From: Bradyrhizobium barranii subsp. barranii
GTDB lineage: Bacteria; Pseudomonadota; Alphaproteobacteria; Rhizobiales; Xanthobacteraceae
Direction of reading: 5' to 3'
Assembly: GCF_017565645.3 (NCBI RefSeq)
Contig: NZ_CP086137.1
Coordinates: 248,001 to 312,000, forward strand
Length of the DNA: 64,000 bases
Shown: in pieces, positions 43,921 through 62,845 of the stretch
How positions within the stretch are numbered: the first letter of the stretch is position 1
Layout of the letters: each line of letters opens with the position of its first letter
The notes under the pieces: generated by a model
What the model was told of the DNA's origin: nothing
Databases searched by the model: none
The model's input: only the letters and a program-made list of their open reading frames with translations
Program-made: the position numbers and the translations under genes

Positions 43921-43936
43921 GTTGTCAGCTGACAAC
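43921..43936. promoter_or_regulatory. parS-type site 2 (perfect)
   Basis: GTTGTCAGCTGACAAC, a perfect 16-bp palindrome 21 bases beyond site 1. Together they form a closely spaced pair 1.3 kb upstream of repA. Confidence 0.9.
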
Positions 43937-45088: not shown

Positions 45089-45104
45089 GTTGTCAGCTGA
45101 CAAC
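45089..45104. promoter_or_regulatory. parS-type site 3 (perfect, extended)
   Basis: The 16-bp palindrome GTTGTCAGCTGACAAC extended by three more paired bases on each side (45086-45107). It lies 158 bases before the repA ATG, so RepB or RepA-RepB binding here could also affect the promoter. Confidence 0.9.
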
Positions 45105-45261
45105 AACAGGGCGGTGCACCAAAAAAAGGGCCTGCGCGCCGTTTGGCACGTCATCGAATAACTCGTTAACCCTTTAATTCTTGCTCAAATCACAGAATCG
45201 TGGCCATCTCTCAAGACGGAGACTAGGCGTCTGACGAGCAGAAACCGTCTTGAGAAGGCAA

Positions 45262-46476
45262 ATGGCGATCTTAGCGGAAGATTCGGCTACCATCAGCGAG
45301 ACTGCGTCTGCGCGGATCACTCGGCACGCGGGCATTCTTTCCGGCCAGCTTCGCTCGCTCGCGACAACTCTTTTCCCGCCTTCGGCGAGCAAGTCGCTCC
45401 GGTCGTTCACCTCTGGAGAGGTTGCGCGAATTGCGGGCGTGTCCGATGGGTACCTTCGGCAGCTCTCTCTTGACGGACTTGGACCGACGCCAGCGACAGG
45501 AACCGGGGGGCGACGGTCTTACACTCTGGGTCAGATTCATGAGTTGCGCGAGTATCTAGCCACTGCGCGGCCGCGCGAAGCAATGGAATTCCTTCCGCGC
45601 CGGCGCCCAGGCGACAAGCTCCAAATCATCACCGTCGCAAACTTCAAAGGCGGCTCCGCCAAGACGACGACGGCATTGTATCTGTCGCAATACCTCGCCC
45701 TTGCCGGCTTTCGGGTCCTCGCGATTGACCTCGATCCGCAAGCTTCGCTTTCAGCAATGTTCGGGTACCAACCCGAGTTTGACATTGGGGCGAACGAAAC
45801 CCTGTACGGGGCCATCCGATATGACGAACATCGCCGGCCACTGCGCGAGATTGTCCGGCCGACCTATTTTGACGGGATAGGGCTCGTTCCAGGCAATCTC
45901 GAGCTTATGGAGTTTGAGCACACTACGCCTCGAGCAATGGTCGAGCGGCGAGAACGCGGACACGACCTGTTCTTTCGCCGCGTCGCCAGTGCCATCGACC
46001 AGGTTGCAGACGAATACGACGTCGTTGTTATCGACTGCCCACCCCAACTTGGTTACCTGACCATGGGCGCGCTAAACGCGGCGACCGCTATGCTCGTGAC
46101 CATCCATCCGCAGATGGTCGATGTCGCATCCATGAGCCAATTTCTTCTCATGACGTCGGATCTCATGTCCGTCATCGAAGAAGCTGGCGGGCGCCTCGAT
46201 CACGATTTCATCCGGTACGTCATCACGCGTCACGATCCCAATGACGTGCCTGAAGCTCAAATCGTGGCGCTCCTCCGCACCCTCTTTGGTTCAGATGTGC
46301 TCCAGGCGACTGTGTGGAAATCGACCGCGATCGCCAATGCTGGTCTCACCAAGCAATCACTTTATGAGCTGGAGCGCGGCGCCGTAGGGCGGGGCGCCTA
46401 CGACCGAGCATTAGAATCGGTCGACGCGGTCAATGCCGAAATCGCGCAACTTCTTAAGAAGGTGTGGGGTCGATGA
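45262..46476 (+). CDS. repA: RepA, ParA-type partition ATPase of the repABC operon
   Basis: 404 residues from ATG 45262; an in-frame TTG at 45250 is less likely. A MerR-like helix-turn-helix (SFTSGEVARIAGVSDGYLRQ, about 48-67) precedes the deviant Walker A FKGGSAKTTTALYL (about 128-141), Walker A' LAIDLDPQASLS, and Walker B YDVVVIDCPPQLG. The N-terminal DNA-binding domain and length are those of type Ib/RepA proteins, which segregate the plasmid with RepB and repress the operon. The stop overlaps repB by ATGA. Confidence 0.96.
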   Translation: MAILAEDSATISETASARITRHAGILSGQLRSLATTLFPPSASKSLRSFTSGEVARIAGVSDGYLRQLSLDGLGPTPATGTGGRRSYTLGQIHELREYLATARPREAMEFLPRRRPGDKLQIITVANFKGGSAKTTTALYLSQYLALAGFRVLAIDLDPQASLSAMFGYQPEFDIGANETLYGAIRYDEHRRPLREIVRPTYFDGIGLVPGNLELMEFEHTTPRAMVERRERGHDLFFRRVASAIDQVADEYDVVVIDCPPQLGYLTMGALNAATAMLVTIHPQMVDVASMSQFLLMTSDLMSVIEEAGGRLDHDFIRYVITRHDPNDVPEAQIVALLRTLFGSDVLQATVWKSTAIANAGLTKQSLYELERGAVGRGAYDRALESVDAVNAEIAQLLKKVWGR

Positions 46477-47492
46477 GCAAACGTACTGACACGATCAAGA
46501 GCCTTTTCACGGCCCCGCAATCAAGTGCGTTGTCAGCTGACAACATGCCCGCTGCCTTGCCGCGGGTCTCGTCGGGCTCGGTTCGCTCGTTGAAAGACTC
46601 TTTCTCCGAAGTGGAGAAAGAGAACGAGGAACTTCGCGAACGAATTGCATCCGGGGCGGTGATACTTGAAATCGACCCCTCGCTCGTCGATCCGTCACCG
46701 CTGGCCGACCGTTTTCGCGATCAGGATGATAGCTCGTTCGAAGCGCTCAAACAGTCGATCGCACAGCGTGGCCAAGAGGTGCCCATTCTCGTTCGGGAGC
46801 ATCCTGAAGCGAAAGGGCGCTATCAGAGCGCCTATGGTCATCGCCGCGTCCGCGCCACGCGCGAACTAGGTATTTCCGTCAAAGCGATTCTGCGATCGTT
46901 GTCAGATGAAGCGCTTGTCGTGGCGCAAGGACTCGAGAACGCACCGCGCGAAGATTTGAGTTTCATTGAGCGCGCCAGCTTCGCGATGCATATCGAGGAT
47001 GCCGGGCATAGCCGCTCAGTCGTGCAGGATGCGTTGTCGGTCGATCGGGCGGAGGCCTCGAAACTTCTTGCCGTGGCTCGATCGGTTCCTGCCGAGGTCA
47101 TTCAAGCGATCGGGAAAGCTCCGAAAGTTGGCCGCGGCCGTTGGCAGTCATTCGCTGAATTGATCAAGGATTCCGCGGCGCTCAAACGGGTCAGAGCGGC
47201 GATCGCCGAACCTAAATTTGCAGAGCGCGAAACCGACGCACGATTTCTTGCAGCATTCTCCGCGGCAACCCGTCCATCTCGCGGGGAGCCCTCGAAAGAG
47301 CCGGACGAGAAGCCGGTCTTTTCCGTGTCCGGGGAAAAGATTGCGCACGTGCGTCAGGCCGAGCGCGAATTGAAGCTTACCATCGACAAGAATGTCTCGA
47401 CGACATTCGCGGCATTTCTTGTGGACCAACTCCCGGCCCTGTTCGACGCCTTTTCCAAGAAGAGCAGTGGTCAGGAAAGTACCGAGGCCTGA
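46473..47492 (+). CDS. repB: RepB, centromere-binding partition protein
   Basis: 339 residues from ATG 46473 (ATGA overlap with repA). ParB-like: ALKQSIAQRGQEVPILVREH and YGHRRVRATRELGISVKAIL (about 90-140) form the nuclease-like N-domain, IERASFAMHIEDAGHSRSVV and the following segment the KorB-like helix-turn-helix. One partition palindrome is embedded in its 5' coding region and read as ALSADNM. RepB binds these sites and RepA for plasmid segregation. Confidence 0.96.
   Translation: MSKRTDTIKSLFTAPQSSALSADNMPAALPRVSSGSVRSLKDSFSEVEKENEELRERIASGAVILEIDPSLVDPSPLADRFRDQDDSSFEALKQSIAQRGQEVPILVREHPEAKGRYQSAYGHRRVRATRELGISVKAILRSLSDEALVVAQGLENAPREDLSFIERASFAMHIEDAGHSRSVVQDALSVDRAEASKLLAVARSVPAEVIQAIGKAPKVGRGRWQSFAELIKDSAALKRVRAAIAEPKFAERETDARFLAAFSAATRPSRGEPSKEPDEKPVFSVSGEKIAHVRQAERELKLTIDKNVSTTFAAFLVDQLPALFDAFSKKSSGQESTEA
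46529..46544. promoter_or_regulatory. parS-type site 4, inside repB
   Basis: GTTGTCAGCTGACAAC, perfect, at codons 19-24 of repB. It confirms that the palindrome is the cognate RepB target of this operon, since embedded or adjacent sites are usual for repABC plasmids. Confidence 0.9.
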
Positions 47493-47534
47493 CGGTCTCG
47501 TCCGTAAACACGAACCAGGAGCAGACAAGGCAAA

Positions 47535-47587
47535 AGAAAAAGGCCCCCGAAACGGAGTTCCGGAAGCCCTTCTCTTCAAGTTTGGCG
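47535..47587 (-). ncRNA. Antisense ctRNA (incompatibility RNA) of repABC
   Basis: In the repB-repC gap the minus strand has TTGACT (complement of 47617-47622), a 17-base spacer, and TTCTCT (complement of 47594-47599). Transcription would start near 47587 and end at a hairpin of 12 pairs with a 3-base loop (47542-47568) followed by TTTTTC. Length (about 50 nt), position and orientation match the ctRNA that controls RepC in this plasmid family. The same stem can form in the mRNA and affect repC translation. Confidence 0.8.
47542..47568 (-). terminator. Intrinsic terminator of the ctRNA
   Basis: On the minus strand, GGCTTCCGGAAC, loop TCC, GTTTCGGGGGCC (twelve pairs, three of them G-U) is followed by TTTTTCTTTTG. 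A textbook factor-independent terminator. Confidence 0.85.
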
Positions 47588-47593
47588 ACTGAC

Positions 47594-47622
47594 AGAGAAT
47601 CACTTTCGCGAATCGCAGTCAA
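47594..47622 (-). promoter_or_regulatory. ctRNA promoter candidate
   Basis: The -35 TTGACT is one base off consensus; the -10 TTCTCT is weaker; the spacing is 17 bases. It directs transcription away from repC across the gap. Confidence 0.65.
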
Positions 47623-47688
47623 GAGTTTCCACGCGATTTTATCGTCGTTTCGGCGAGCGGATTTTCTTTGCCCAACTGAGGCAAAGAC

Positions 47689-48921
47689 ATGCAGTCACAC
47701 TCTCCAACGACGCCCTTTGGGCGGCGATCGCTGACGCTTGCCCATGTGGCAAGCCAGATGGTCGCAACGGAACGTCCTCCCGAAAAGATCGTGCACAAAT
47801 GGAAGATCTTCCACGCCATCTGCACGGCACGGCCGCGCCTTGGGGTGTCGGAGCGCGCGCTCTCGGTGCTAAACGCACTCCTAACCTTCCATCCCGAGAC
47901 CGCGCTGACAGGAGAGGATGACCTGATCGTCTTCCCCTCGAACCATCAGCTCGCGCGGCGAGCGCACGGCATGCCGGCATCGACGCTGCGACGCCACCTC
48001 GCTGTGCTGGTCGACGCGGGGCTAATCGTTCGGCGCGACAGTCCAAATGGCAAGCGATATGCGCGGAAGGACGATGCTGGCGAAATCGAGCTCGCGTTCG
48101 GCTTCGATCTGTCACCGCTCGTCGTGCGCTCGGAAGAGTTCGAGAGCCTGGCGGCCGATATCGAAGCCGAGGCCCGCGCACTCAAGCTCGTGCGTGAGCG
48201 GATTACACTGTGCCGGCGCGACATCGGGAAGATGATTGCAACTGGCATGGAGGAAGCCGTCCCGACGCGAAGGGGAGGGCAGGGGCCTGCCGATTGGAAG
48301 GTCGTGCACGCTGCCTTCCGCGCGATCGTCGATCAGATTCCGCGCACCGCGACGCGCCAGGAGCTCGAGCCGATCGCCGACGAGTTGTCTCAGCTCGCCG
48401 ACGACGTACTCAATCTTCTGGAAACACATGTCAAATCCAAGAATCCGAGCGCCAATGAGTCCCATTCTGAGCACCACATACAGAATTCAAATCCAGATAC
48501 CCTCATTGACCTTGAACCTAGCCTTCGAGAAGGCAGGGCGGCGGGAGCTGAGCCAAGGCCTCAACCATCGCGAGTCGGGGAGGGGACGTATCCGTTGGGA
48601 ATGGTCCTGAGTGCATGCCCGGACATCGTCGACTATGCGAAGGGCGGGCTTTCGAACTGGCGCGATTTCCTGGCCACAGCGGCCGTTGTACGATCGATGC
48701 TGGGGATCAGTCCGAGCGCCTGGGAGGAGGCGCAAAAGGTTATGGGCGAGGTGCCTGCAGCCATCGTCGTCGCGTGTATCCTGCAGCGCGGGACGGCGAT
48801 CAATTCCGCTGGCGGTTATCTGCGCGGTCTAACGCGAAAAGCCGAGGTCGGCGAATTTTCGCTTGGTCCAATCCTGATGGCGCAGATCAATTCTCGCCGG
48901 CGAGACAAGCAGAGGGCGTGA
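47689..48921 (+). CDS. repC: RepC replication initiator
   Basis: 410 residues from ATG 47689. The N-terminal winged-helix domain (VLNALLTFHPETAL, VFPSNHQLARRAHGMPASTL, RRHLAVLVDAGLIVRRDSPN) and GKRYARKDDAGEIELAFGFD are the conserved RepC opening. The C-terminal domain has WRDFLATAAVVRSMLGISPS and AGGYLRGLTRKAEVGEFSLG, also standard. In repABC replicons the origin lies within repC itself. Length is normal and the frame intact, so the replicon is probably functional. Confidence 0.96.
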   Translation: MQSHSPTTPFGRRSLTLAHVASQMVATERPPEKIVHKWKIFHAICTARPRLGVSERALSVLNALLTFHPETALTGEDDLIVFPSNHQLARRAHGMPASTLRRHLAVLVDAGLIVRRDSPNGKRYARKDDAGEIELAFGFDLSPLVVRSEEFESLAADIEAEARALKLVRERITLCRRDIGKMIATGMEEAVPTRRGGQGPADWKVVHAAFRAIVDQIPRTATRQELEPIADELSQLADDVLNLLETHVKSKNPSANESHSEHHIQNSNPDTLIDLEPSLREGRAAGAEPRPQPSRVGEGTYPLGMVLSACPDIVDYAKGGLSNWRDFLATAAVVRSMLGISPSAWEEAQKVMGEVPAAIVVACILQRGTAINSAGGYLRGLTRKAEVGEFSLGPILMAQINSRRRDKQRA

Positions 48922-50086: not shown

Positions 50087-50829
50087 TCGGAAAGCCCGCT
50101 GCGACCGCCGGCCAAATAACGTTCGGGTTGAATCGAGCCCGGCAGCCGGATTGCTGCAGAGGCCGATTGCGCTCACAACCCTCTCCGACGATGTGGAGTG
50201 GCAACCCGAACGCCCAGCTTCGTTCCATCGCGCGTGCCGGCGGAATCGTCCCGGACTCGGAGGCCGGCATGCCAAGCGACGGTAGCATCTGTTTTACGCC
50301 TCGCGGGGCGCTCGGTCGCATGGATGCGGTGGGCGGGTTGCATCCACATGGCGAGTACGTTGCCAGCCTCGTTATCGATCTTGCGCTGGCAACTTCGACG
50401 GCTACGCCGAAATGCTGACGGTGACGATCTCCATTGCGGGTGATGCGCGCCGTCCAGGTGACCTATTAAGGTGAGCTGCATTTTGCTTGCCGCGCCCATT
50501 GCCTGAGATCCGAATGGCCGAACGGATCGGGGCCGCCTGTCTTCATTCCATGTGGTTTAGCGACGGGCGCACCCATCACCATCCTCGATAGAGGCTGGTC
50601 TGACCGAAGGCCGATCCCGCTTCGCGGGCTCTCGATCTTGTCCCTGCAACGTCCGTCCTCGACTTTCTTCACCTGGCGCTGCGCACCATTCCTCGCGGTC
50701 CAAGAAAGTCGAGGCCGGCCGCCCTCCATTTCATTTCGGCCCTTTGGGTGCAGGTCGATCGCCTCCGGTCTCACGACCGCCATCGAGGTCGCGATCGGCG
50801 CGGCCCGAGAAAACCAAGGGAATGAGACA
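50087..50829. other. No gene recognised upstream of the intact DUF736 gene
   Basis: About 740 bases. Open frames exist on both strands but overlap each other and look like shadow frames (Arg/Pro/Ser-rich, no ribosome binding site). The part just before 50830 probably holds the promoter of the DUF736 gene. Nothing repeated or structured was found. Confidence 0.4.
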
Positions 50830-51141
50830 ATGGCTACCATCGGCACCTTCACGTCCACGGGCAATGGCTTCTCCGGCGCGATCAAGACGCTCAACCTCAA
50901 CGTCAAGGCCAAGCTGATCCGCGTCGACACCCCTTCCGACAAGGGACCGCACTTCCGCATCTACTCCGGCAACGTCGAGTTGGGCGCCGCCTGGCAGAAG
51001 ACCGCCAAGGACACCGAGCGCGACTACCTCTCCGTCAAGCTGGACGATCCGAGCTTCCCGGCTCCGATCTACGCCACCCTGATCGAAGTCGAAGGTGCGG
51101 AAGGCCTGCAACTGATCTGGTCTCGGCCGAACCGGGACTGA
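50830..51141 (+). CDS. DUF736 protein, intact
   Basis: 103 residues from ATG 50830. [20 protein letters not shown] opens the family; [20 protein letters not shown] and [20 protein letters not shown] follow, ending IWSRPNRD. It is the intact paralog of the truncated gene at 35704. DUF736 genes sit near conjugation and single-strand-binding functions on alphaproteobacterial plasmids; the role is unproven. A hairpin and then a 47-residue gene follow. Confidence 0.92.
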
Positions 51142-51568: not shown

Positions 51569-53110
51569 ATGCCTACCCAGAGATTGTCGATGCGCCGGAT
51601 CAAGGAAGTCCTTCGGTTAAAACATTTTCAAGGCCTGCCAGAGCGGGCCATCGCGCGGAGCGTGGGCGTCAGCAACGGCGTTGTGCACAGCTACCTGAGC
51701 CGCGCCCGCTCTGCTGGGTTGAGCTGGCCGCTTCCGGAGGGAATGACCGATGAAGACCTGGAGCTTTTGCTTTTCCCGGCCCCACGACCAGCGTCTCAGA
51801 GCCCGCAGCGGCCGGTGCCCGACTGGAGCTACATCGATAAAGAGCTCCGCCGGCGCAACGTAACCCGTCGCCTGCTCTGGGAGGAGTATCGCGCCGTTAA
51901 TCCCGACGGTTTCGGGTACACGTGGTTCTGCACTACCTACGAGGCCTGGAAGGGGCGGGTCCGACCTTCGATGCGGCAGATTCATCTGGGCGGCGAGAAG
52001 GTGTTCGTGGATTTCGCCGGCGACACCATCGACATCGTCGATCCGCTGACCGGGGAAGTGCAGCCGATGAAGCTGTTCGTCGCGGCGATGGGCGCTTCGA
52101 ACTACACCTACGCCGAGGCCTGCCCCAGCGAGAGCTTGGCCGACTGGATCCGGGCCCACGTCAACTTGTTCACGTTTTTGAGCGGAACGCCGACGTTCGT
52201 GGTCTGCGACAACCTCAAAGCCGCCGTCAGCAACCCCGACCGCTACGATCCCGGCCTCAATCGCACTTATGCCGAGATGGCGAGCCATTACGGCACGGCC
52301 ATTCTCGCCGCACGGCCGCGGCGCCCAAAAGACAAGGCGAAGGTCGAGGTCGCGGTGCAAATCGCCCAGCGCTGGATTCTGGCCCGGCTGCGCAATCAGC
52401 GCTTCTTTTCCCGGGCCGAGCTCAACGCCGCCATCAAGACACTCGTCGACGAACTCAATGCTCGTCAAATGCGTGGCTTCGGCTCAAGCCGCGCCGAACT
52501 GTTTGCCGAACTCGACAAACCCAAGCTAACCCCGCTGCCAGATCAGCCTTATGCCTTCGCACGCTGGAAGCGCTGCCGCCTCGCTCCCGATTATCATGTC
52601 GAGGTCGACGGCCATTGGTACTCCGCGCCGTATCGTCTGATTGGCGAGCTGGTCGATGCCCGTATCGACGATCGGACGGTCGAGATCTTCCACAAGGGCC
52701 AGCGGATCGCCAGCCATGCCCGCGCGCCCAACCGACGCGGACACACCACCATCGCCGACCACATGCCGAGCGCCCATCGCCGCTACGGCAAATGGACCCC
52801 CGCCGCGGTGATCGCCGCCGGCGAGCGGATCGGTCCTTCGACAGCAGCGTTTTTCCAGGCCGTGATCGACGCCCGGCCCCATCCAGAACAAGGCTTTCGA
52901 ACCTGCCTTGGCATTCTGGCGCTCGTCAAAAGCTACGGCGCCGAACGCCTCGACGCAGCCTGCCGGAGGGGCATCCTCATCAAGGCGCGCTCCGTCGCCT
53001 CGATTAGATCGATCCTCCAGAACGGCCTCGATCGCACGTTCTTCGACGAATCTTTCGAGCACCAGCCCCTGCGCCACGGCAATATCCGCGGACGCGACTA
53101 CTTCCACTGA
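51569..53110 (+). CDS. istA: IstA transposase (IS21)
   Basis: 513 residues. An N-terminal helix-turn-helix (RIKEVLRLKHFQGLPERAIA, RSVGVSNGVVHSYLSRARSA) is followed by the DDE integrase core: first Asp in GEKVFVDFAGDTIDIVD (about 142-158), second in TFVVCDNLKAAVSNPD (about 209-224), Glu in DKAKVEVAVQIAQRWI (about 254-269). The C-terminal domain has WYSAPYRLIGELVDAR. The frame is intact and length normal. Confidence 0.95.
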   Translation: MPTQRLSMRRIKEVLRLKHFQGLPERAIARSVGVSNGVVHSYLSRARSAGLSWPLPEGMTDEDLELLLFPAPRPASQSPQRPVPDWSYIDKELRRRNVTRRLLWEEYRAVNPDGFGYTWFCTTYEAWKGRVRPSMRQIHLGGEKVFVDFAGDTIDIVDPLTGEVQPMKLFVAAMGASNYTYAEACPSESLADWIRAHVNLFTFLSGTPTFVVCDNLKAAVSNPDRYDPGLNRTYAEMASHYGTAILAARPRRPKDKAKVEVAVQIAQRWILARLRNQRFFSRAELNAAIKTLVDELNARQMRGFGSSRAELFAELDKPKLTPLPDQPYAFARWKRCRLAPDYHVEVDGHWYSAPYRLIGELVDARIDDRTVEIFHKGQRIASHARAPNRRGHTTIADHMPSAHRRYGKWTPAAVIAAGERIGPSTAAFFQAVIDARPHPEQGFRTCLGILALVKSYGAERLDAACRRGILIKARSVASIRSILQNGLDRTFFDESFEHQPLRHGNIRGRDYFH

Positions 53111-53128
53111 AGCAAGGAGAGACCCGGC

Positions 53129-53890
53129 ATGCTTAACCACCCAACCCACGAACGGCTGATCGAGCTTGGCCTGACCGGAATGGCCAAGGCCTTCGAGGAG
53201 CAGCGCCGATCGCCCGATCTCGAAGCCCTGCCGTTCGAAGATCGCATCGGCCTGTTGGTCGACCGCGAAGCCGCCGAACGCGACACCAGGCGGCTCACCA
53301 CGCGCCTCAAGATCGCCGCACTGCGCCAGACTGCTTGCGTCGAGGACGTCGATCTGCGCACCCCGCGGGGCATCGACCGCGCCGTTTTCGCCAAACTCGT
53401 CGAAGGTCGCTGGATCGATCGCCACGAGAATTTGCTCGTCACCGGGGCAACCGGCCTGGGCAAAAGTTGGTTAGCCTGCGCGCTCGGCCACAAGGCCTGC
53501 CGCGACAACCGATCAGTCCTCTATCATCGCGTTCCAAGGCTGTTCGAGGCGCTCGCGCTCGCGCGCGGAGACGGACGTTACGCTCGGCTCCTCAAAAGCC
53601 TCGGCCGCGCTCAGCTTCTGATTTTGGATGATTGGGGACTATCGGTGCTCACCGCCGCGGAACGCCGCGATCTGCTCGAAATCCTCGAGGACCGCCATGG
53701 CCGCGCATCCACCATCGTCACAAGTCAGCTCCCCGTGGACACCTGGCATGGAGCCATTGGGGACCCCACGGTCGCCGACGCCATTCTCGATCGCCTCGTC
53801 CACAACGCCCACCGCCTCCAGCTCACCGGAGAAAGCATGCGAAAACGCAGCGCCAAAACCATCACCCTTGACGGCCAACCAGAACACTGA
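53129..53890 (+). CDS. istB: IstB helper ATPase (IS21)
   Basis: 253 residues, AAA+ type related to DnaC. Walker A GATGLGKSWLACAL (about 108-121), Walker B LLILDDWGLSVL (about 165-176), and sensor STIVTSQLPVDTWH (about 197-210). It follows istA by 18 bases with AAGGAGAG as ribosome binding site. IstB aids target capture by IstA. Intact. Confidence 0.95.
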   Translation: MLNHPTHERLIELGLTGMAKAFEEQRRSPDLEALPFEDRIGLLVDREAAERDTRRLTTRLKIAALRQTACVEDVDLRTPRGIDRAVFAKLVEGRWIDRHENLLVTGATGLGKSWLACALGHKACRDNRSVLYHRVPRLFEALALARGDGRYARLLKSLGRAQLLILDDWGLSVLTAAERRDLLEILEDRHGRASTIVTSQLPVDTWHGAIGDPTVADAILDRLVHNAHRLQLTGESMRKRSAKTITLDGQPEH

Positions 53891-54366: not shown

Positions 54367-54652
54367 CTAAGGCGGTTTTTCGTCCATGACAGCGTAACCG
54401 CGCCTCCGCTTCGCACGCTCCAGCCGTACGAATGCTTCGATCGCCTCCGCACTACTATCGAAGGTCTGCACCATGGTTTTGCCACTCGTGCCGATGCGGC
54501 CCCAATTGCGGATCTCCGAATAAGGTGGGCTGGGTGGATAGCGCATAGAACCGCCGCATATTGTGCGCGGCTTCGATGTGGCGCAGATGAAGCGGCTCTG
54601 GTTCGGGTTTCGGCACGGACAGATTCTCGCTTCGGAGGGAAGCGCCGTCCAA
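54367..54652 (-). pseudogene. WGR-domain protein gene, frameshifted
   Basis: From TTG 54652 the frame has LHLRHIEAAHNMRRFYALST and QPTLFG, the N-terminal half of the short WGR protein family, then is lost near 54525. The next frame gives NWGRIGTSGKTMVQTFDSSA and EAIEAFVRLERAKRRRGYAV to TAG 54367-54369. The Trp-Gly-Arg signature (NWGRIG) is in the second half. One or a few missing bases would explain the break. Function of the family is DNA-associated but not well defined. Confidence 0.75.
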
Positions 54653-54743
54653 TGAGTTTTATGAATCGACCGGGCAGATCGATTCAATTTATCAATAGGT
54701 CCATCGGGCCGGAGAATGCCGCACCCCCGTCTTATTTGTCGGA

Positions 54744-55223
54744 TTGAATCTCTCCTCGATGGAGACTTCGCCATCGGACGCGCGTCGCAATTCCTGGCTT
54801 GCAATTGCGCCAGTCTTGATCAGAACAGCCGCCCGAAAGAGATCGGCTCTAATTCAAAGTTCCTGCGGCTCTTACAGCCTTGCCTGCTTGGGCGAGCTCC
54901 TTCGGGGACGGCTCTACTCGCGCCGCCGCGGCGACGCTCCCGGAGCCCACAAGCGGTCTCCGCGCCTTCGCGTGACGATCCTCTCGCGACCGGTCGCGGA
55001 CCGCTCAGCAACGAGCACGATTGCCGGCTCACTTCGCCAGAAGTTCCCTCCATGGCTATGGGCTGACCTGACTCTTGTGGCAGGGGATTCGCTGTACGAA
55101 TTCCGGGATCGTTCCGGTGACCGGATTCGCAATCGTCTGTTGGTTCAAACCAACATCCCCCAGGACATGATGGACAAGGACATGGCTCCCGCACTGTTAG
55201 ATCCATTTCGGACCTTAAGATGA
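54744..55223 (+). CDS. Doubtful hypothetical gene upstream of parA
   Basis: A 159-residue frame overlapping the parA start by four bases (ATGA). The first two thirds are Arg/Ser-rich and look artificial, but the last 50 residues (LTLVAGDSLYEFRDRSGDRI then RNRLLVQTNIPQDMMDKDMA) look coding. A true gene with an upstream frameshift is possible. One of the two 16-bp palindromes is inside this frame, read as LLVQTNIPQ. Confidence 0.35.
   Translation: MNLSSMETSPSDARRNSWLAIAPVLIRTAARKRSALIQSSCGSYSLACLGELLRGRLYSRRRGDAPGAHKRSPRLRVTILSRPVADRSATSTIAGSLRQKFPPWLWADLTLVAGDSLYEFRDRSGDRIRNRLLVQTNIPQDMMDKDMAPALLDPFRTLR
55139..55154. repeat. 16-bp palindrome, copy 1, upstream of parA
   Basis: GTTGGTTCAAACCAAC: two 7-base arms around CA. 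It lies 66 bases before the parA start. Copy 2 downstream of parB is the same sequence inverted (centre TG). Candidate ParB-binding site or operator of this second partition system. Confidence 0.7.
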
Positions 55224-55981
55224 AGACCATTGTCATCAACAATCAAAAGGGCGGGGTCGGCAAGACGACGCTTGCCGTGCATCTGGCTTGGTTCATGGCG
55301 GAAGCGGATCTCCGCGTCCTCGTGATCGACGTTGATGCGCAAAGCAATGCGTCGGATACGTTGAGGCACTACGCCGGTTCAACGTTAGCCGCGGATCTGT
55401 TCAAGCCGGGGATACGTGTCGTACCTCGGGAAGACAAGTCCCTAACGCTCGCGCCGGCCGATAGCTCGCTGACCGATCTCGATCGCAGCAGTGCGGCCGC
55501 CATAACGACTCTGCAAGAGAACCTCGCTATCGCGTCGGATCAGTTCGATGCCTGCGTCATCGATACGCCGCCATCACTTGGACTGCGCAGTGTCGGCTGT
55601 TTGGTGGCGGCGTCGCATGTGCTGGCTCCCATCTATCTGGAGGACTATTCGATCAAGGGCGTCAAAGGTCTGATGCAGACCGTGATCGGCGTGCAGAGGC
55701 GTTACGGCCGCCAGGATACCAAGTTCCTCGGGTTGCTGCCTTCGAACTTCAATACGAAATCGCCCCGTCAAAGGAGCCATCTTGAGCAACTGTTGCGCGA
55801 GGCGGGCAAATATGTGTTCCCGGGTCAGATCGTTGCAAGGGACGGCTACGCCGAGGCCGTTGCCGAACGCCTGCCGGTCTGGAAGCTGAAGCGCCGCTCT
55901 GCCCAGGAGGCTGGTCGGGAAATCCGCGAGGTTCTCGCCAAGATCGTCGCGCAAATGGACGAGCCGGCACATGGCGCTTGA
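55220..55981 (+). CDS. parA: ParA, second partition ATPase
   Basis: 253 residues. IVINNQKGGVGKTTLAVHLA (4-23) holds the deviant Walker A; VLVIDVDAQSNASDTL is Walker A', and DACVIDTPPSLGL Walker B. There is no N-terminal helix-turn-helix, unlike RepA, so this is a small type Ib or integrative-element ParA. It overlaps parB by 11 bases. It is separate from the repABC system 8 kb away, with which it shares only the family fold. Confidence 0.93.
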   Translation: MKTIVINNQKGGVGKTTLAVHLAWFMAEADLRVLVIDVDAQSNASDTLRHYAGSTLAADLFKPGIRVVPREDKSLTLAPADSSLTDLDRSSAAAITTLQENLAIASDQFDACVIDTPPSLGLRSVGCLVAASHVLAPIYLEDYSIKGVKGLMQTVIGVQRRYGRQDTKFLGLLPSNFNTKSPRQRSHLEQLLREAGKYVFPGQIVARDGYAEAVAERLPVWKLKRRSAQEAGREIREVLAKIVAQMDEPAHGA

Positions 55982-56951
55982 TCTCAGCTTTAAGCAGCTC
56001 ATCGATGCCGCGGAAGATGGTGCCGCCACAATCGGACAACCGACTTGCATCGCCATCGATCGTATTGACGAAGATCCGGACCAGCCTCGTCGCAGTTTCG
56101 ACGAACAGAAACTCGAGGAGCTCGCGGAATCAGTCCGTCAGCATGGCGTGCTGCAACCGATCGTGCTGCGCCAAGCGACCGAGGAAGGCCGGTATGTGAT
56201 CGTCGTGGGTGCGAGGCGGTATCGTGCTGCTAAGCGCGCCGGGCTCCGGGACATCCCGGCTTTCATTCATGCCGTTGGTTCTGCGGATCGTTATGTTCAG
56301 ATGATCGAGAATATTCAGCGCGACGATCTCGATGCTCCCGAAATTGCAGCGTTCGTCGCGGACCGCTTGGAGCAGGGTGACAACCAATCCGACATCTCGC
56401 GCAAGCTCGGCAAGCCGAGGGACTGGGTATCTCGCTACGCGTCGGTCCAGAGCATGCCGGAGTTCCTCCAGTCGAAGCTTGCCGGCTCATCAATCCGTGC
56501 TGTGTACGAACTCTATCAGGCTTGGCGTGAGCAGCCCCACGCCGTCGAGACTTTATGCGCAGCACAGGAGAGTTTCACCGACGCCCACGCCCGTCAGCTG
56601 GCTCGCAAAATTCGCAGCGAAGTCCGCGGCTCCCCTGCTGATGGCGAAGGGCCGCCTGGAGCTCAAGCCGGACGAAGCCCGATCGCATCGCCAGTGGCAT
56701 TGCGACCCAGCGAGAGAGACGGTGTAACCGCGATCGCGGAGAAACCTCTCAACTCCTTGGCCGATCGGAATGCGCGAATGAGCCCATCGCTGACGATCAG
56801 AGTGCGTCACCAAGATCGCATGGGCTGTCTTCTGATCGATCGACTCGCGTCTCGAGGCTCACGCCATGCCGTGCTGCTGATCGATGGTACAGAAGAGGCG
56901 GAAGAGGTTCCGGCATCGACGGTTACAATCGAAGAGATACTGTTCGCATGA
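55971..56951 (+). CDS. parB: ParB, second partition protein
   Basis: 326 residues. IDEDPDQPRRSFDEQKLEEL, then SVRQHGVLQPIVLRQATEEG and YVIVVGARRYRAAKRAGLRD, form the N-domain with the GxRRYRA motif that binds CTP in ParB proteins. EIAAFVADRLEQGDNQSDIS and KPRDWVSRYASVQSM form the helix-turn-helix. The C-terminus (about 275-326) is a possible dimer domain. Its target should be near; the two 16-bp palindromes bracketing the operon are the best candidates. Confidence 0.93.
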   Translation: MALDLSFKQLIDAAEDGAATIGQPTCIAIDRIDEDPDQPRRSFDEQKLEELAESVRQHGVLQPIVLRQATEEGRYVIVVGARRYRAAKRAGLRDIPAFIHAVGSADRYVQMIENIQRDDLDAPEIAAFVADRLEQGDNQSDISRKLGKPRDWVSRYASVQSMPEFLQSKLAGSSIRAVYELYQAWREQPHAVETLCAAQESFTDAHARQLARKIRSEVRGSPADGEGPPGAQAGRSPIASPVALRPSERDGVTAIAEKPLNSLADRNARMSPSLTIRVRHQDRMGCLLIDRLASRGSRHAVLLIDGTEEAEEVPASTVTIEEILFA

Positions 56952-57272
56952 AGCTTGTCTTGAACAGCCTCCGCAGAAACGCTGCTACAGTTGGTGCGCC
57001 GGCGGAGCGGATTTCCCATCCGAAGGATGGCGCGTTAGCGCAGCAGCCGGAGGCCGAGCGCGCCTTCCACAGCGCCGTAGAGAGGCCGGAGGCTGCTGGA
57101 AAGCCGCGGTCCACATGCTCGATGCCAATGTTGCCGATCTGGACGCGCGGGTTTCGTGGAGAACAAGGATTAGGGGCGACGGCTTCGTCATTCCCGGAGG
57201 AATTCTCCGCATCGATCGGCGACCGTGTTGGATCTCACGTCCAGCACCCCCCGAGATTTGACTGCCGAGCCC

Positions 57273-57288
57273 GTTGGTTTGAACCAAC
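57273..57288. repeat. 16-bp palindrome, copy 2, downstream of parB
   Basis: GTTGGTTTGAACCAAC, the reverse complement of copy 1. Both copies are followed by AT on the same side (ACCAACAT). It lies 88 bases before mobC and 22 bases from the oriT-like sequence. Confidence 0.7.
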
Positions 57289-57309
57289 ATGGAGGGGGTC
57301 GAAGGATTC

Positions 57310-57331
57310 GCACTTTCTAGTGCAGGATAGG
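57310..57331 (-). other. Candidate origin of transfer (oriT) with MOBP-type nic core
   Basis: On the minus strand CCTATCCTGC (57322-57331) matches the ATCCTG nic core of MOBP relaxases (IncP type). Directly beside it is an inverted repeat GCACT-TTCT-AGTGC (57310-57323). It lies 45 bases upstream of mobC, followed by the relaxase gene, the standard layout. The nick would fall between G and C of ATCCTGC; that is inference from the family. Confidence 0.6.
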
Positions 57332-57375
57332 CTTCGCGCCAGCGATGTATTACATCGCGATTGGGATTGGAGTGC

Positions 57376-57894
57376 ATGGCTCTGATCTCGCTTCGTGTCT
57401 CCGACGAAGTCGCTGCAGAATTCTCAGCTTTTGCAGCTACCCAGGGCGGTAAGTCTGCGCTGCTGCGGCGTCTCATTGCTGATGCACTAGCTGCACCAGC
57501 GCCGCGCATCTTGGCGTTGCCGGTCGGACGGCCGGAAAAGGTGACGGTGCGATTTCGCGAGAGCGAGATGCGGCAGCTGGCGGAGGTCTCACATCAGCGC
57601 GGCATGACCCGAACCGGCTGGATCGTCGCGCTGGTGCGCTCGCGATTGGGGGCGCCGGTGCAGCATTCCCCGCACGAGCATGACGCGCTTCGCGCGATCG
57701 TTCGCGAGCTCAATCGGATCGGCGGCAACATCAACCAGATCGCGCGGGCCGCAAACACCAGTGTGCTACAGGGCAGGGCGGTTGAGCCCGATTTGTCGGT
57801 AATTCAAGAAGCCAAATTGGTCATCGAAAGAGAGCTCGCGCAATTGCGTAGTGCGCTGCACGGCAACGCGGATTATTGGGATGGACCGCGATGA
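57376..57894 (+). CDS. mobC: MobC-type relaxosome accessory protein
   Basis: 172 residues from ATG 57376, with TTGGAG as ribosome binding site. An N-terminal segment (MALISLRVSDEVAAEFSAFA) resembles a ribbon-helix-helix, a second RHH-like part is KVTVRFRESEMRQLAEVSHQ, and the MobC signature is ELNRIGGNINQIARAANTS (about 114-132). MobC proteins help the relaxase open oriT. The stop overlaps the relaxase ATG. Confidence 0.85.
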   Translation: MALISLRVSDEVAAEFSAFAATQGGKSALLRRLIADALAAPAPRILALPVGRPEKVTVRFRESEMRQLAEVSHQRGMTRTGWIVALVRSRLGAPVQHSPHEHDALRAIVRELNRIGGNINQIARAANTSVLQGRAVEPDLSVIQEAKLVIERELAQLRSALHGNADYWDGPR

Positions 57895-58961
57895 GCCGTC
57901 GCTCGCCGCGGCCAGCCGACCTGGACTCCGAACTTCCGCCGATCTCGTATGTTTGGGAAACGCCCAATCGGCGCCCACGGCGGGCCGAGTGGGATATCCC
58001 CGATCCGGCCGCTCCAGGCCGTCTTACGCCGGCGATGCGTGCAAAGCTCGAACGCATCGTGCGCCGAGCGCCCGAGGTGATGGTCAAGATCACCGGTCGT
58101 ACCAAGGACGTGGCGCATCTCAAATCGCACCTGGCCTACATCACGCGAAACGGCGAGCTCGATGCGGAAACTGAGCAGGGCGCGACGCTGGCGGGTCGTT
58201 CCGGATTGAAAGATCTGCAGCAACGCTGGGAGGATGATGCCGGCCTCGACAAGCGCCGCCGTGATGGATTGCTTTCGATCAACATCATTCTATCGATGCC
58301 GGCTGGTACCGATGCCATTGCGGTTAAGGATTCAGCTCGGGCATTTGCCATCGAGACGTTCGGGGACAACCACGACTACGTCTTCGTCCAGCACCTCGAT
58401 GACAAGCATCCCCACGTGCACTTGACCGTTCGGTCTTTGGGCCATGACGGCAAACGCCTCAGCCCCCGCAAAGCGGATCTTCAGGCCTGGCGAGAACGGT
58501 TTGCCGGCGAGCTCCGGCTGCGCGGGATCGCGGCGGAGGCAACGCCGAGGCGAACCCGCGGACGAGTTCGAAAGGCCGATCGCGGAGCGGTGCTTGGTTT
58601 ACGCAAGCGAAAGATCACGCCCGATGTCGATCGGCTCGCCCGTAAGGAGGTGCTTTCGGAGGTGAGGGGCGGCAGAACCGCCAAACATCCCTGGGAGGAA
58701 AAGATTGAATCACGTCAGGACGCCATTCGGCGGCGATATCTAGACTATGCCGCGGAGCTGCAGCGTTCTGGAGCGGCAGCAGATCGCGAGTTGGCTCGCC
58801 AGGTTCGGCAATTCGTCAAGGATATGCCCGCAGTCGAAACCCGCCGGCATACGTTGAAAAGCGAGCTGTCGGAGCTTGCGAAAATCCGGAGCGTGGGCGC
58901 AGAGCAGGGAGTCGTTGCAGACCGGCGCGACGATACGCGAGGCGATGAAAGGACGAGATAG
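57891..58961 (+). CDS. MOBP/VirD2-like relaxase
   Basis: 356 residues from ATG 57891 (ATGA overlap with mobC). The relaxase domain has VMVKITGRTKDVAHLKSHLA then YITRNGEL (possible catalytic Tyr), a conserved SINIILSMPAGTD strand, and the metal-binding HPHVHLTVRS (about residue 170). The C-terminal half is basic and helical. No conjugation (mating-pair) genes are in view, so the unit is mobilizable rather than self-transmissible. The TAG stop lies against the tRNA-Met fragment, so the original C-terminus may be slightly truncated. Confidence 0.88.
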   Translation: MSRRSPRPADLDSELPPISYVWETPNRRPRRAEWDIPDPAAPGRLTPAMRAKLERIVRRAPEVMVKITGRTKDVAHLKSHLAYITRNGELDAETEQGATLAGRSGLKDLQQRWEDDAGLDKRRRDGLLSINIILSMPAGTDAIAVKDSARAFAIETFGDNHDYVFVQHLDDKHPHVHLTVRSLGHDGKRLSPRKADLQAWRERFAGELRLRGIAAEATPRRTRGRVRKADRGAVLGLRKRKITPDVDRLARKEVLSEVRGGRTAKHPWEEKIESRQDAIRRRYLDYAAELQRSGAAADRELARQVRQFVKDMPAVETRRHTLKSELSELAKIRSVGAEQGVVADRRDDTRGDERTR

Positions 58962-59018
58962 GCGAGCGCAGGAATCATAATCCTGGGGTCGGGGGCTCGA
59001 GTCCCTCTCCCGCTACCA
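58961..59018 (+). tRNA. 3' fragment of tRNA-Met(CAT), probable attachment site
   Basis: The fragment contains the end of the D-stem (GAGC), the anticodon stem CAGGA/TCCTG with loop ATCATAA (CAT at 58976-58978), the T-arm with CTCGAGT in place of TTCGAGT, and the acceptor end TCCCGCTACCA. The 5' acceptor strand and most of the D-arm are missing, so it cannot fold into a tRNA. Such 3' tRNA ends are left by integrase-mediated insertion of elements. Confidence 0.8.
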
Positions 59019-59164
59019 ATTCCAGCGTAACCCTTTGATTTTCCAGACTTGGCCGACCGATGTTTCGAGGCGAGGGATGTCTCATTGATACATCCTCAAC
59101 GGTCGCGGATCAATTCTCGCCGTGAACGATCAACATCGGGCGCGGAGAGCCGGCGTGCGGGCTG

Positions 59165-59219
59165 CGATTTGCGAAAGTGTGGCGGGTTAACGGGGGTTCG
59201 AATCCCTTCCTCTCCGCCA
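59165..59219 (+). tRNA. 3' fragment of tRNA-Ser, probable attachment site
   Basis: GGGGGTTCGAATCCCTTC and CTCTCCGCCA (to 59219) match the T-arm and acceptor 3' end of alphaproteobacterial tRNA-Ser. Sequence before it fits a variable arm loosely; a GGAGAG 76 bases from the end could mimic an acceptor strand but no D- or anticodon arm forms. It directly precedes the integrase gene, as at attL of tRNA-targeting islands. Confidence 0.7.
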
Positions 59220-59247
59220 GTATATTGTTCTCCTCTGTTCGTAGTCA

Positions 59248-60006
59248 TTCGGACTCCACAGCAAAATCAGTGACTTGCGCCGAAAAGCTGTACTTCGCAG
59301 TTCGTCGGTGTTCTTCCTAATCTGCTCACTAACCGTAGTTTTTACCCGTGGGTTCGGAGGACGGCTCAAACCACTCGACATAGAACGCCAAACCAAGCCC
59401 GGCAAATACGCTGATGGTGCTGGGCTCTAATTGATCATCACCGGCCCAACATCGAAGAGCTGGTCATACAGATATTGGAAAGACGGCAAAGAGCGCTGGC
59501 ACGGCCTGGGCTCGTTGAAGGACGTGTCGCTCAAGGACGCACGTCTTGCGCGCGATGCGGCTCGGCTGCGCGTAAAGGGCGATCGCAGCACCGCCGGCGT
59601 GGATATCGTGCAGGAGAGGCGAAAAGCACGCGACGAAATGAAAGCCGTCGAGGCAAAGGTTGTGTTGCCGACGTTCGAAGAATGCGCGGAAGCCTACATC
59701 CGGGCGAACTGGTCGAGCTGGAGCGAGAAGCATCGCGATCAGTGGCCGTCCTCGCTCAAGCGCTACGCATACGGACGTGTAACGGTGCACGGATTCCGGT
59801 CGACCTTCGCAACTTGGGCCGAGGAATGCACCGACTATCCGGATGGCGTACGCGAAGCTGCACTGGCCCACAAATACAAGAGCGAGACGACCGCAGCCTA
59901 TCAACGAGGTCAAAAGCTCGAAAAGCGCCGGGCGCTAATGAAGGATTGGGCCGTATTCCTGACCGGCGCCAATGTGACCCAATTTGAGGACCGGAGGACA
60001 GGATAG
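59248..60006 (+). pseudogene. P4-type tyrosine integrase gene, stop codon and internal deletion
   Basis: The frame reads RLKPLDIERQTKPGKYADGA then GL-stop-LIITGPTSKSWSYRYW; the TAA at 59428-59430 stands where relatives have Tyr (GLYLI). The DUF4102 N-domain continues with GLGSLKDVSLKDARLARDAA and a core-binding part (FEECAEAYIRANWSSWSEKH). Then RYAYGR is joined directly to VTVHGFRSTFATWAEE, the H-x-x-R block, so about 170 residues including the first catalytic Arg are deleted. The Tyr region (ALAHKYKSETTAAYQRG) remains. Not functional. Confidence 0.85.
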
Positions 60007-61718: not shown

Positions 61719-62546
61719 TCATGCGGCCATCACCATAGCTTGCGTGCCGAAGTAAGCCTCGTCGGGCGTGCGCCCGTCAAGGCTCGAGTGAGGGCGTCCC
61801 TGATTGTAGAAGGCCAGATACTTGGCAATTGACGCTAGCGCCTCGGACACGCTGTCGTAGGCGCGGAGATAAACTTCTTCGTATTTGACCGTGCGCCAGA
61901 GCCGCTCGACAAACACGTTGTCGCGCCAGGCGCCCTTGCCGTCCATGCTGATGGCGATCTTCGCGTCCAGCAGCACATCGGTGAACTCGAGGCTGGTGAA
62001 CTGGCTGCCCTGATCCGTGTTGAAAATCTCGGGCCTGCCGTGCTTCGCCAACGCCTCCTGGACCGCTTCGACGCAGAAGGCCGCCTCCATTGTGATCGAG
62101 ACGCGATGGGCCAGGACCCGTCGGCTGAACACATCGACGACCGCCGCGAGATAGACGAAGCCACGCCGCATCGGAATGTAGGTGATGTCCATTGCCCACG
62201 CATGGTCGGGCCGCTCGATCTTCAATCCGCGCAACAGGTACGGGTAGATCTTGTGACCCGGAGCCGGCTTGCTCGTGTTCGGGCGACGATAGACCGCCTC
62301 GATCCGCATGCGCTTCATCAGCGTCGCGATGTGGCGGCGACCGGAGTATACGCCCTCCCGCCGCAGCAACGATCGCAGCATACGCGCTCCCGCGAAGGGA
62401 TAATCGAGATGCAGCTCATCGAGCCGACGCATCAAGGCAAGGTCCTCGGCCGAAACTGGCCGAGGTTCATAGTAGACCGTGCTGCGAGCCAGCTTCAGGA
62501 CCTTCGCCTGGCGCACGATAGAAAGATCATGATCGCGGTCGATCAT
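61719..62546 (-). CDS. IS3-family transposase OrfB
   Basis: 275 residues. HTH_21-like helix (LALMRRLDELHLDYPFAGAR) then the rve integrase core: AWAMDITYIPMRRGFVYLAA (first Asp), IFNTDQGSQFTSLEFTDVLL (second Asp), and the Glu in RDNVFVERLWRTVKYEEVYL. C-terminal YNQGRPHSSLDGRTPDEAYF is standard. The ATG overlaps the orfA stop, where programmed -1 frameshifting makes the OrfAB fusion in this family. Intact. Confidence 0.94.
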   Translation of the reverse strand: MIDRDHDLSIVRQAKVLKLARSTVYYEPRPVSAEDLALMRRLDELHLDYPFAGARMLRSLLRREGVYSGRRHIATLMKRMRIEAVYRRPNTSKPAPGHKIYPYLLRGLKIERPDHAWAMDITYIPMRRGFVYLAAVVDVFSRRVLAHRVSITMEAAFCVEAVQEALAKHGRPEIFNTDQGSQFTSLEFTDVLLDAKIAISMDGKGAWRDNVFVERLWRTVKYEEVYLRAYDSVSEALASIAKYLAFYNQGRPHSSLDGRTPDEAYFGTQAMVMAA

Positions 62547-62845
62547 CGCTTTGCGCTCAGCAGGCCCGCCTTGGTGAGCGCGCCGGACAAAAAATCGTTT
62601 TCCAACGCCAGCTCGCCGATCTTGGCATGTAACGCCTTCAAATCGACCGGCGTCTCGGCCGATGTCTTGTCATGCCCAAACACGCCGGCGGCGCCTTCCA
62701 GGAGCTGGTTTTTCCAGATCGTGATCTGGTTCGGATGAACATCAAACAGCTGCGCCAGCTCCGCCAGTGTCTTGTCGCCTTTGACCGCAGCCAAAGCAAC
62801 CTTCGCCTTGAATGCCGGAGAATGCGTCCGGCGGCTCTTTAGTCG
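62543..62845 (-). pseudogene. IS3-family OrfA, 5' end missing
   Basis: The frame has THSPAFKAKVALAAVKGDKT, then LAELAQLFDVHPNQITIWKN as the helix-turn-helix, and a Leu-zipper part (LKALHAKIGELALENDFLSG) to the stop at 62543. Relatives start a few residues earlier with Met; here the frame runs upstream into unrelated sequence, so no proper start exists. This probably immobilises the element. Confidence 0.75.

Follow-up and report, generated by a model that had tools for sequence, protein, structure and literature searches.

A probable KorB/IncC-type partition and mobilization block beside repABC on a Bradyrhizobium barranii plasmid

In plasmid RA3, a KorB-bound palindrome (9707-9722), the origin of transfer (oriT), mobC and nic lie beside incC-korB (PMC4175270, PMC8124265), and RA3 depends on IncC for its stability in both hosts and, in P. 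putida, also for transfer and/or establishment (PMC8124265). KorB is a clamp dependent on cytidine triphosphate (CTP) (PMC11790492), and the ParB protein of NAH7 activates transfer genes from parS (PMC12421886). In this study, we analysed 64,000 nucleotides (nt) of Bradyrhizobium barranii subsp. barranii (contig NZ_CP086137.1, positions 248,001 to 312,000; hereafter the window), in which the partition genes parA and parB are flanked by a 16-base-pair (bp) palindrome and followed by an oriT-like site, mobC and a relaxase gene. An initial annotation, made from the sequence alone, had suggested that this block may be a mobilizable island maintained by its own segregation system. We consider it likely that the block is a KorB/IncC-type ParABS system with a lineage-specific parS, joined to a MOBP transfer module in a relative of the RA3 junction, and that it lies in the backbone of a repABC plasmid of ~318 kb. 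The order and homology of the genes, the conservation of the palindrome and of the oriT core, and the presence of RepAB with its own sites on the same contig are all directly observed.

Partition genes, palindrome and transfer genes

The parA gene (55220..55981, plus strand) encodes a short IncC/Soj-like ATPase without an N-terminal extension, and parB (55971..56951, plus strand) encodes a KorB-type protein consisting of ParB_N, a KorB helix-turn-helix domain (PF08535, 39.5 bits; cut-off 22.3) and a C-terminal KorB-like barrel. By sequence and by fold, the nearest solved structure for the N-terminal and DNA-binding parts of ParB is RK2 KorB, and the ParB model (mean predicted local distance difference test score, pLDDT, 74) matches RK2 KorB (8qa9_B) with a template modelling score (TMt) of 0.75. 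Its last 56 residues (pLDDT 94) match the KorB-C structure 1igq (TMq 0.84, root-mean-square deviation 1.1, Foldseek E-value 0.0015). The motifs GxRRY and NIQR, which we take to be CTP contacts, are invariant in nine ParB homologues, RA3 KorB included. Against the RepB profile, ParB scores 58.8 (cut-off 201.5) and is not of the RepB family. The other ParB-like gene of the genome (C1:268255) is 35% identical and probably encodes the chromosomal ParB.

Downstream of parB lie mobC (57376..57894, plus strand; NikA/MobC family) and a MOBP-type relaxase gene (57891..58961, plus strand; PF03432). The relaxase scores 98.7 bits against NCBIfam MobP1, below the cut-off of 200, and has no solved relative by sequence at an E-value of 0.01. 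All four proteins have homologues in RA3, with identities of 40% for ParA and IncC (249 amino acids, aa), 33% for ParB and KorB (232 aa), 30% for the MobC proteins (128 aa) and 45% for the relaxase and Nic (290 aa). The names given to the four genes in the initial annotation were confirmed, as was its account of a palindrome pair around parAB.

The palindrome, GTTGGTT-CA/TG-AACCAAC (16 bp), has 7-bp arms and a 2-bp centre. Its first copy, the predicted parS 1 with a conserved core (GTTGGTTCAAACCAAC, 55139..55154), is 65 nt upstream of parA, and its second, inverted copy, the predicted parS 2 (GTTGGTTTGAACCAAC, 57273..57288), is 34 nt from the nick-like motif and 87 nt from mobC, a position that matches that of the RA3 KorB site. 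The exact 16-mer occurs at only these two places in the 11.4-Mb genome. Two further places in the genome match at 2 mismatches, and a reversed control pattern gave three matches. At up to 3 mismatches, the window contains five matches against 0.26 expected from shuffles. The two palindromes, counted on both strands, account for four of these, and the remaining match (27051) differs at 3 positions. In the genome, the shorter core TGGTTYRAACCA is present four times, twice on contig C1, which is about chance level at such a length. The palindrome pair brackets parAB but not the whole element.

The parS of chromosomal ParABS systems is TGTTNCACGTGAAACA, and the palindrome does not fit it. It also lacks the central GC of the repABC parS GTTNNNNGCNNNNAAC and is distinct from the RepB-type site, in agreement with the initial annotation; the RepB-type sequence GTTGTCAGCTGACAAC stands separately at 43921, 45089 and 46529. 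The palindrome had also been called novel. We found its sequence in no relevant published setting, and its use as a text query in the literature returned five papers, all unrelated by title and beginning of abstract; however, RA3 already offers an example of a partition-oriT-mobC junction that carries a site for a ParB-family protein.

The oriT-like site was confirmed and refined to a core (57318..57334, minus strand) and an inverted repeat. The core contains the nick-like motif TATCCTG|C on the minus strand (CAGGATA, 57323-57329) and is assigned by the nick motif rule. The inverted repeat GCGATGTATTACATCGC (57342..57358) is shared with loci L061 and L064-L067, at a similar distance from mobC. 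In 53 of 54 rows, a CAGGAT core lies no more than 130 nt ahead of mobC; the window's own locus and pBBta01 are each represented twice among these rows.

Conservation, natural variants and the possible role of the second ParAB

We compared 59 loci from named genomes (numbered with the prefix L, like the plasmid loci cited below), together with stretches of annotated plasmids. Flanks were counted for plus-strand loci with a ParB match of at least 44% identity and at least 120 bits, identical flanks being counted once. The upstream count requires the parA start and 200 nt before it (L047, L053, L062, L073 and L080 have no row), and the downstream count requires a ParB match to residue 316 and 450 nt behind it (L057-L059 have no row). 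Allowing at most 1 mismatch, we found the core in the 150 nt preceding parA for 40 of 42 distinct flanks (37 exact) and in the 450 nt following parB for 37 of 44 (33 exact). Random segments of the same loci, in which real sites are still included, gave 91 of 4000 in the upstream setting and 239 of 4000 in the downstream setting. The initial annotation had held that absence of the palindrome beside orthologous parAB operons would refute it; these counts show that its core is present beside most of them.

A block alignment of 21 loci contains nine invariant runs of at least 12 columns, and the upstream palindrome, a run of 17 columns (55137-55153), is among the three longest. Three others are located in the block after parB, two in the oriT region, and one each near the parA start, at the parA/parB overlap and upstream of the palindrome. 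The common core is TGGTT..AACCA, with a mismatch in a few loci, and the arms depend on the lineage: GTTGGTT in Bradyrhizobium and also in LHD-71 (ParB 50% identical), TGTGGTT in Bosea, and CGTGGTT or CGTGGTG in Methylocystis suflitae and metagenome-assembled genomes (MAGs). Five parAB plasmids searched whole (W01-W04 and W06) have the core beside parAB only. Palindromes of the GTTTGCCC type lie upstream of parA in Methylorubrum and Methylocystis (L079, 7075; L103, 8800 and 8879); they likely represent another parS type.

We propose that ParB dimers would load at GTTGGTTYRAACCAAC as CTP-dependent sliding clamps and would spread over parAB and toward oriT-mobC. The location of one site 65 nt upstream of parA suggests that ParB may repress parA and thereby its own operon, and ParB at the site beside oriT may perhaps tune mobC or the relaxosome. 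The short ParA would separate ParB-bound copies. RepAB should already partition the replicon; the second system would add segregational stability and may coordinate stability with transfer. Mobilization would depend on the plasmid's own relaxase and coupling protein and on a mating channel supplied by another replicon.

The distances of the two sites from parA (65 nt) and from mobC (87 nt) would also fit a ParB that is chiefly a regulator, with the palindromes serving as parA and mobC operators, like the sites of RK2 KorB, and RepAB performing all segregation. The nearest solved relative, KorB, is a repressor (PMC11790492), NAH7 ParB controls transfer genes through parS (PMC12421886), and RA3 is not destabilised in E. 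coli by parS deletion, though further KorB sites exist there. However, in Bosea and some MAGs the downstream site is located 35-50 nt after parB and ~250-285 nt before mobC, and L064, L066, L067 and L078 have mobC and the oriT core without a downstream site, whereas pNK6a and pS11L-3 retain this site without mobC. Furthermore, 8 of the 10 Bosea-type loci (L068, L070-L072 and L074-L077) contain between three and six exact core sites, the majority located ahead of parA in a centromere-like arrangement; L081, which starts inside parB, and L088 contain one exact core site each. We regard a mainly regulatory role as unlikely.

In RA3, MobC binds to an imperfect palindrome within the mobC promoter (PMC4175270), and the palindrome of the window could by analogy be the site of a MobC autoregulator. 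Its most conserved copy, however, is the one upstream of parA, and loci that lack mobC (L096 and L164) still carry copies. MobC as the palindrome-binding protein is extremely improbable, and we rejected it.

Natural variants of the block separate its parts. On pNK6a, parAB and three sites are present; the 19 kb read contain neither mobC nor an oriT core, and a relaxase fragment of 48 residues lies upstream. Plasmid pS11L-3 has kept parAB, both sites and the oriT core without mobC. On pBb323S2d and pK03D-1, only the last 33 ParB residues, the site and the oriT core remain, and pBs162S2b has a parB-mobC gap of ~4.3 kb containing an istB gene and no site at oriT. The site thus persists with parAB in the absence of mobilization genes and with oriT in the absence of parAB, and neither function alone explains all of these cases. 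Several further observations concern such partial copies. Palindrome-oriT cassettes occur without mobC (L155, L162 and L164) or without this ParB (L155, L162 and L165) and are possibly kept for mobilization in trans. On p53363 of a peanut symbiont (L101, 979 kb), parB is cut to its C-terminal half, and mobC, the relaxase gene, the oriT core and the palindrome are retained; six plasmids similar in size to p53363 have a mobC of the same identity.

These variants also bear on the idea that the second ParAB serves transfer and not segregation, with ParB near oriT gating the relaxosome or bringing it to the mating channel. Replicons that already possess RepAB keep the second ParAB, in a fixed order with oriT and mobC in 34 of the best 40 ParB records (see below). 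The passages on RA3 describe a lowering of transfer and/or establishment in P. putida by IncC loss, and the Stb proteins of R388 link stability with transfer. On the other hand, parAB occurs without mobC on three of these best 40 plasmids, with the sites kept in both that were examined (pNK6a and pS11L-3), and the parS-oriT distance varies among genera; on RA3, separation of parS from oriT had no significant effect. A role in transfer alone seems to us distinctly doubtful. We also considered a more elaborate scheme, in which the second KorB-type ParABS has been retained on repABC plasmids as a link between inheritance and transfer: ParB clamps loaded at a distance of 34 nt from the nick site would keep the plasmid in a segregation mode, their release would license the relaxosome, and site-oriT cassettes without parB or mobilization genes (pCW1_1, pK03D-1 and pBb323S2d) would be controlled and mobilised in trans by co-resident plasmids. 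We put this forward tentatively, as it is unlikely to hold as a whole.

Several results weigh against a KorB/IncC-type ParABS with a conserved parS that acts in partition. ParB is not matched by the Pfam KorB_C profile (PF06613) in sequence, the barrel being seen by fold alone, and no sigma-70-like promoter was found at 54900-57450. The upstream site is missing within 150 nt in L061 and L066 (2 of 42), the downstream site is missing in L064-L067, L069, L078 and L102 (7 of 44), and the two most distant loci, L079 and L103 (ParB 40-41% identical, outside the counts), have the GTTTGCCC-type palindrome instead. Plasmid pCW1_1, which does not encode such a ParB, keeps the site, the oriT core, mobC and the relaxase gene. 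A search of 296 other genomes of the order gave a best match to ParB of 44% identity, and the module is patchy. In the published data on RA3, parS deletion left stability and transfer unchanged in E. coli, where two further KorB sites exist, and the separation of parS and oriT, already mentioned, was examined in P. putida (PMC8124265). Finally, no counterpart of korA, kfrA or kfrC is present among four open reading frames (ORFs) scanned between repC and parA (Pfam) or in the annotation of pBBta01, the searched parts of these plasmids; we therefore call the block a variant of the RA3 module and not a member of it.

Plasmid context and flanking elements

The window belongs to contig C2 (317,868 bp), one of three contigs with repC, and repABC lies at 45250-48921, 6.3 kb upstream of the parAB block. 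The repA (45250..46476; TIGR03453, 609 bits, cut-off 348), repB (46464..47492; TIGR03454, 330 bits, cut-off 201.5) and repC (47689..48921; NF040974, 560 bits, cut-off 150; PF03428) genes, all on the plus strand, were identified with NCBIfam profiles. The three copies of the RepB-type parS GTTGTCAGCTGACAAC are located at 43921..43936, at 45089..45104 upstream of repA and at 46529..46544 at the start of repB, and the sequence agrees with the repABC parS consensus in PMC9040568. The absence of replication genes noted in the initial annotation is therefore true of the stretch it named, but not of the contig. Its separate segregation system beside repABC was likewise borne out, with a separate ParAB, its own palindrome and an adjacent repABC, although not as part of a mobilizable island.

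Between repC and parA, a DUF736 gene (50821..51141, plus strand; the start codon is our choice) and a WGR-domain gene (54367..54804, minus strand) have counterparts in the same places on pBBta01 and pBs28S5a. The order repABC-DUF736-WGR-parA-parB-mobC-relaxase is common to the window and these two plasmids, the pBs28S5a stretch starting inside repB. In a whole-genome search for two families of mating genes, a VirD4-type coupling protein was found on C2, and matches to PF03135 (VirB4) were found on C1, C3 and C4 only.

Some ParB match is present in 3176 plasmid records, the best 40 of which are 58-100% identical. Among these best 40, mobC follows 415-433 nt after parB in 34, is further away or partial in three and has no match at an E-value of 1e-30 in the remaining three. 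The parA-parB-mobC-relaxase order was thus found in other genomes, as the initial annotation had proposed to check, and the combination of partition and mobilization genes, which it had considered unusual, proved to be common on Bradyrhizobium plasmids, judging from these records. Thirty-two of the best 40 are also among the best 60 of 1931 RepC records, and two of the other eight carry repC according to a separate search; all 10 plasmid records searched whole for RP-C have it. Conversely, 28 of the best 60 RepC records are not among the best 40 ParB records, and judging from these matches many repABC plasmids probably have no close parAB copy. The module is a frequent but patchy accessory of these plasmids.

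The suggestion of a mobilizable island beside a repABC replicon drew on the region behind the relaxase gene, where tRNA 3' ends and an integrase remnant follow and where, with the upstream side, insertion sequences flank the block. A tRNA-Met-like 3' half (58964..59018, plus strand; Rfam tRNA, 28 bits, gathering score 29) directly follows the relaxase stop, and a tRNA-Ser-like 3' end (59191..59219, plus strand) lies further downstream. Both 3' ends were confirmed, their last 28-29 nt being one base off an intact chromosomal gene, and are read as att-like remnants. The integrase was also rightly regarded as dead: the remnant of a tyrosine integrase (59431..60006, plus strand) is internally deleted; it retains the arm domain at its N terminus, and of the catalytic domain just the C-terminal end is left. 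A functional integrase with att ends, as expected of an integrative mobilizable element, is accordingly not present, and none of the 20 repeat families listed (of 40) is evidently a direct repeat at the borders of the block. The same order together with repABC on pBBta01 and pBs28S5a also speaks against an island, and this reading does not fit a module that is a frequent, patchy accessory of such plasmids. We consider it very improbable.

A tRNA-Met 3' half lies within a few bases of the relaxase stop in the window and in several relatives, in varied states of decay, and other tRNA 3' ends are present elsewhere. Of 46 loci, 11 have a T-arm-to-CCA pattern within 700 nt behind the relaxase gene, compared with 217 of 5000 random segments, and the flank is too short in three more loci. 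Scored against the tRNA-Met half, 19 of 48 loci exceed the 99th percentile of random segments, a count that contains near-duplicates and other tRNA types; both random backgrounds contain real copies. In the window (58962-59219) and in L039, L042, L045, L048, L056, L057, L060, L061, L094 and L097, the 3' halves belong to several tRNA types, of which those other than Met and Ser were assigned by eye. In L041, a DUF6538-containing ORF cut by the contig end lies directly behind, and nine other downstream ORFs that were scanned gave one serine recombinase match (L052) and no match to a tyrosine integrase family. The region behind the relaxase is an att-like hot spot at which the backbone meets variable cargo. 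The block is flanked by IS21-type istA-istB genes upstream (51569-53890) and by an IS3-type element downstream (61719-62794); IS21 genes adjoin parA on pBBta01.

A conserved hairpin (57042..57097, plus strand) lies 3' of parB inside a conserved block (57010-57115) and is a candidate structured RNA or terminator. In 12 sequences, 5 of its 14 predicted pairs change on both sides, in an alignment that is partly ambiguous, and this covariation became visible only once distant copies were aligned. The conserved stretch folded alone is no better than shuffles (z -0.47), and the block has no match in Rfam 15. The hairpin core pattern is located 111-120 nt after parB in most Bradyrhizobium loci and pMpar-2, but not in L043, L059, L062, L065 or Bosea. 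Related copies are present on Agrobacterium and Jeongeuplla plasmids (L153, L154, L156 and L158), where they follow parA or toxin-antitoxin operons that are unrelated to this one. A copy on a Ti plasmid (L157) adjoins parA in the opposite orientation, and one on an Ensifer plasmid (L159) follows nodD3. A third gene after parB was also considered. Bradyrhizobium loci have an ATG that overlaps the stop codon of parB and starts a frame of 121-177 aa (65 aa in L102). This ATG is lacking in LHD-71 (L065) and in the group with a ParB of 46-50% identity, where the frame is mostly 20-58 aa (200 in L069). The most conserved stretch hardly varies in nucleotide sequence, even at third codon positions, and we therefore read it as non-coding and rejected a third gene.

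Relation to known systems

Many Bradyrhizobium plasmids carry this ParAB besides repABC, with a different site of which one copy lies beside oriT. The transferable symbiosis megaplasmid pDOA9 (L049; accession DF820426, PMC4339197), which is capable of conjugative transfer to and stable maintenance in another Bradyrhizobium (PMC9530727), carries the block; a term search of these two papers returned no passage on a second parAB. The titles and beginnings of abstracts of the top-ranked literature, a set largely without subscription papers, contain no description of the module on Bradyrhizobium plasmids, which is weak evidence of novelty. The second system is probably deletable without plasmid loss, because RepAB should keep the replicon. 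The sites supply predicted parS sequences for a ParB clade of Bradyrhizobium, Bosea and Methylocystis, and the question raised by RA3 and NAH7, whether segregation and transfer compete or cooperate at parS-oriT, becomes directly testable.

The block resembles RA3 in having four homologous proteins in the same order. An IncC-like ParA, a KorB-type ParB with a KorB-C barrel (by fold), a site between parB and oriT, and homologues of MobC and Nic are all present. In both plasmids, a ParB-family site precedes a CAGGAT nick-like motif upstream of mobC, at a distance of 25 nt in RA3 and 34 nt here, and is followed by ACATGG and a G-rich run. However, the RA3 site TTTCGTACGTACGAAA is another sequence, the other copy here lies before parA whereas RA3 has two further KorB sites, and the 45.9-kb RA3 contrasts with a repABC replicon of ~318 kb that has its own RepAB.

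The operator of RK2 KorB differs in sequence from the palindrome found here. ParB shares with RK2 KorB the ParB_N and KorB domains, the KorB-C-like barrel and the aligned GARRYR and EN(I/L)QR motifs, but it has two sites at a single locus, and its KorB_C region is unrecognised by Pfam. NAH7 also combines a partition protein with sites near transfer genes; its 18-bp site TTTCTCGCATGCGAGAAA, however, is dispersed at six places, and its ParB activates genes of the type IV secretion system. The repABC partition system shares the contig, a ParB-family protein and a palindromic site with the block, but in RepA ~120 N-terminal residues precede the ATPase domain, RepB belongs to a separate family and the site is GTTGTCAGCTGACAAC. 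In R388, as far as the passages on StbABC describe it, a stability operon likewise adjoins oriT, but StbA is not homologous to ParB, its sites are direct repeats and not palindromes, and StbB is dispensable for stability. The block of the window is well explained as a variant of an arrangement already described, here in a new setting, and does not represent a novel type of island.

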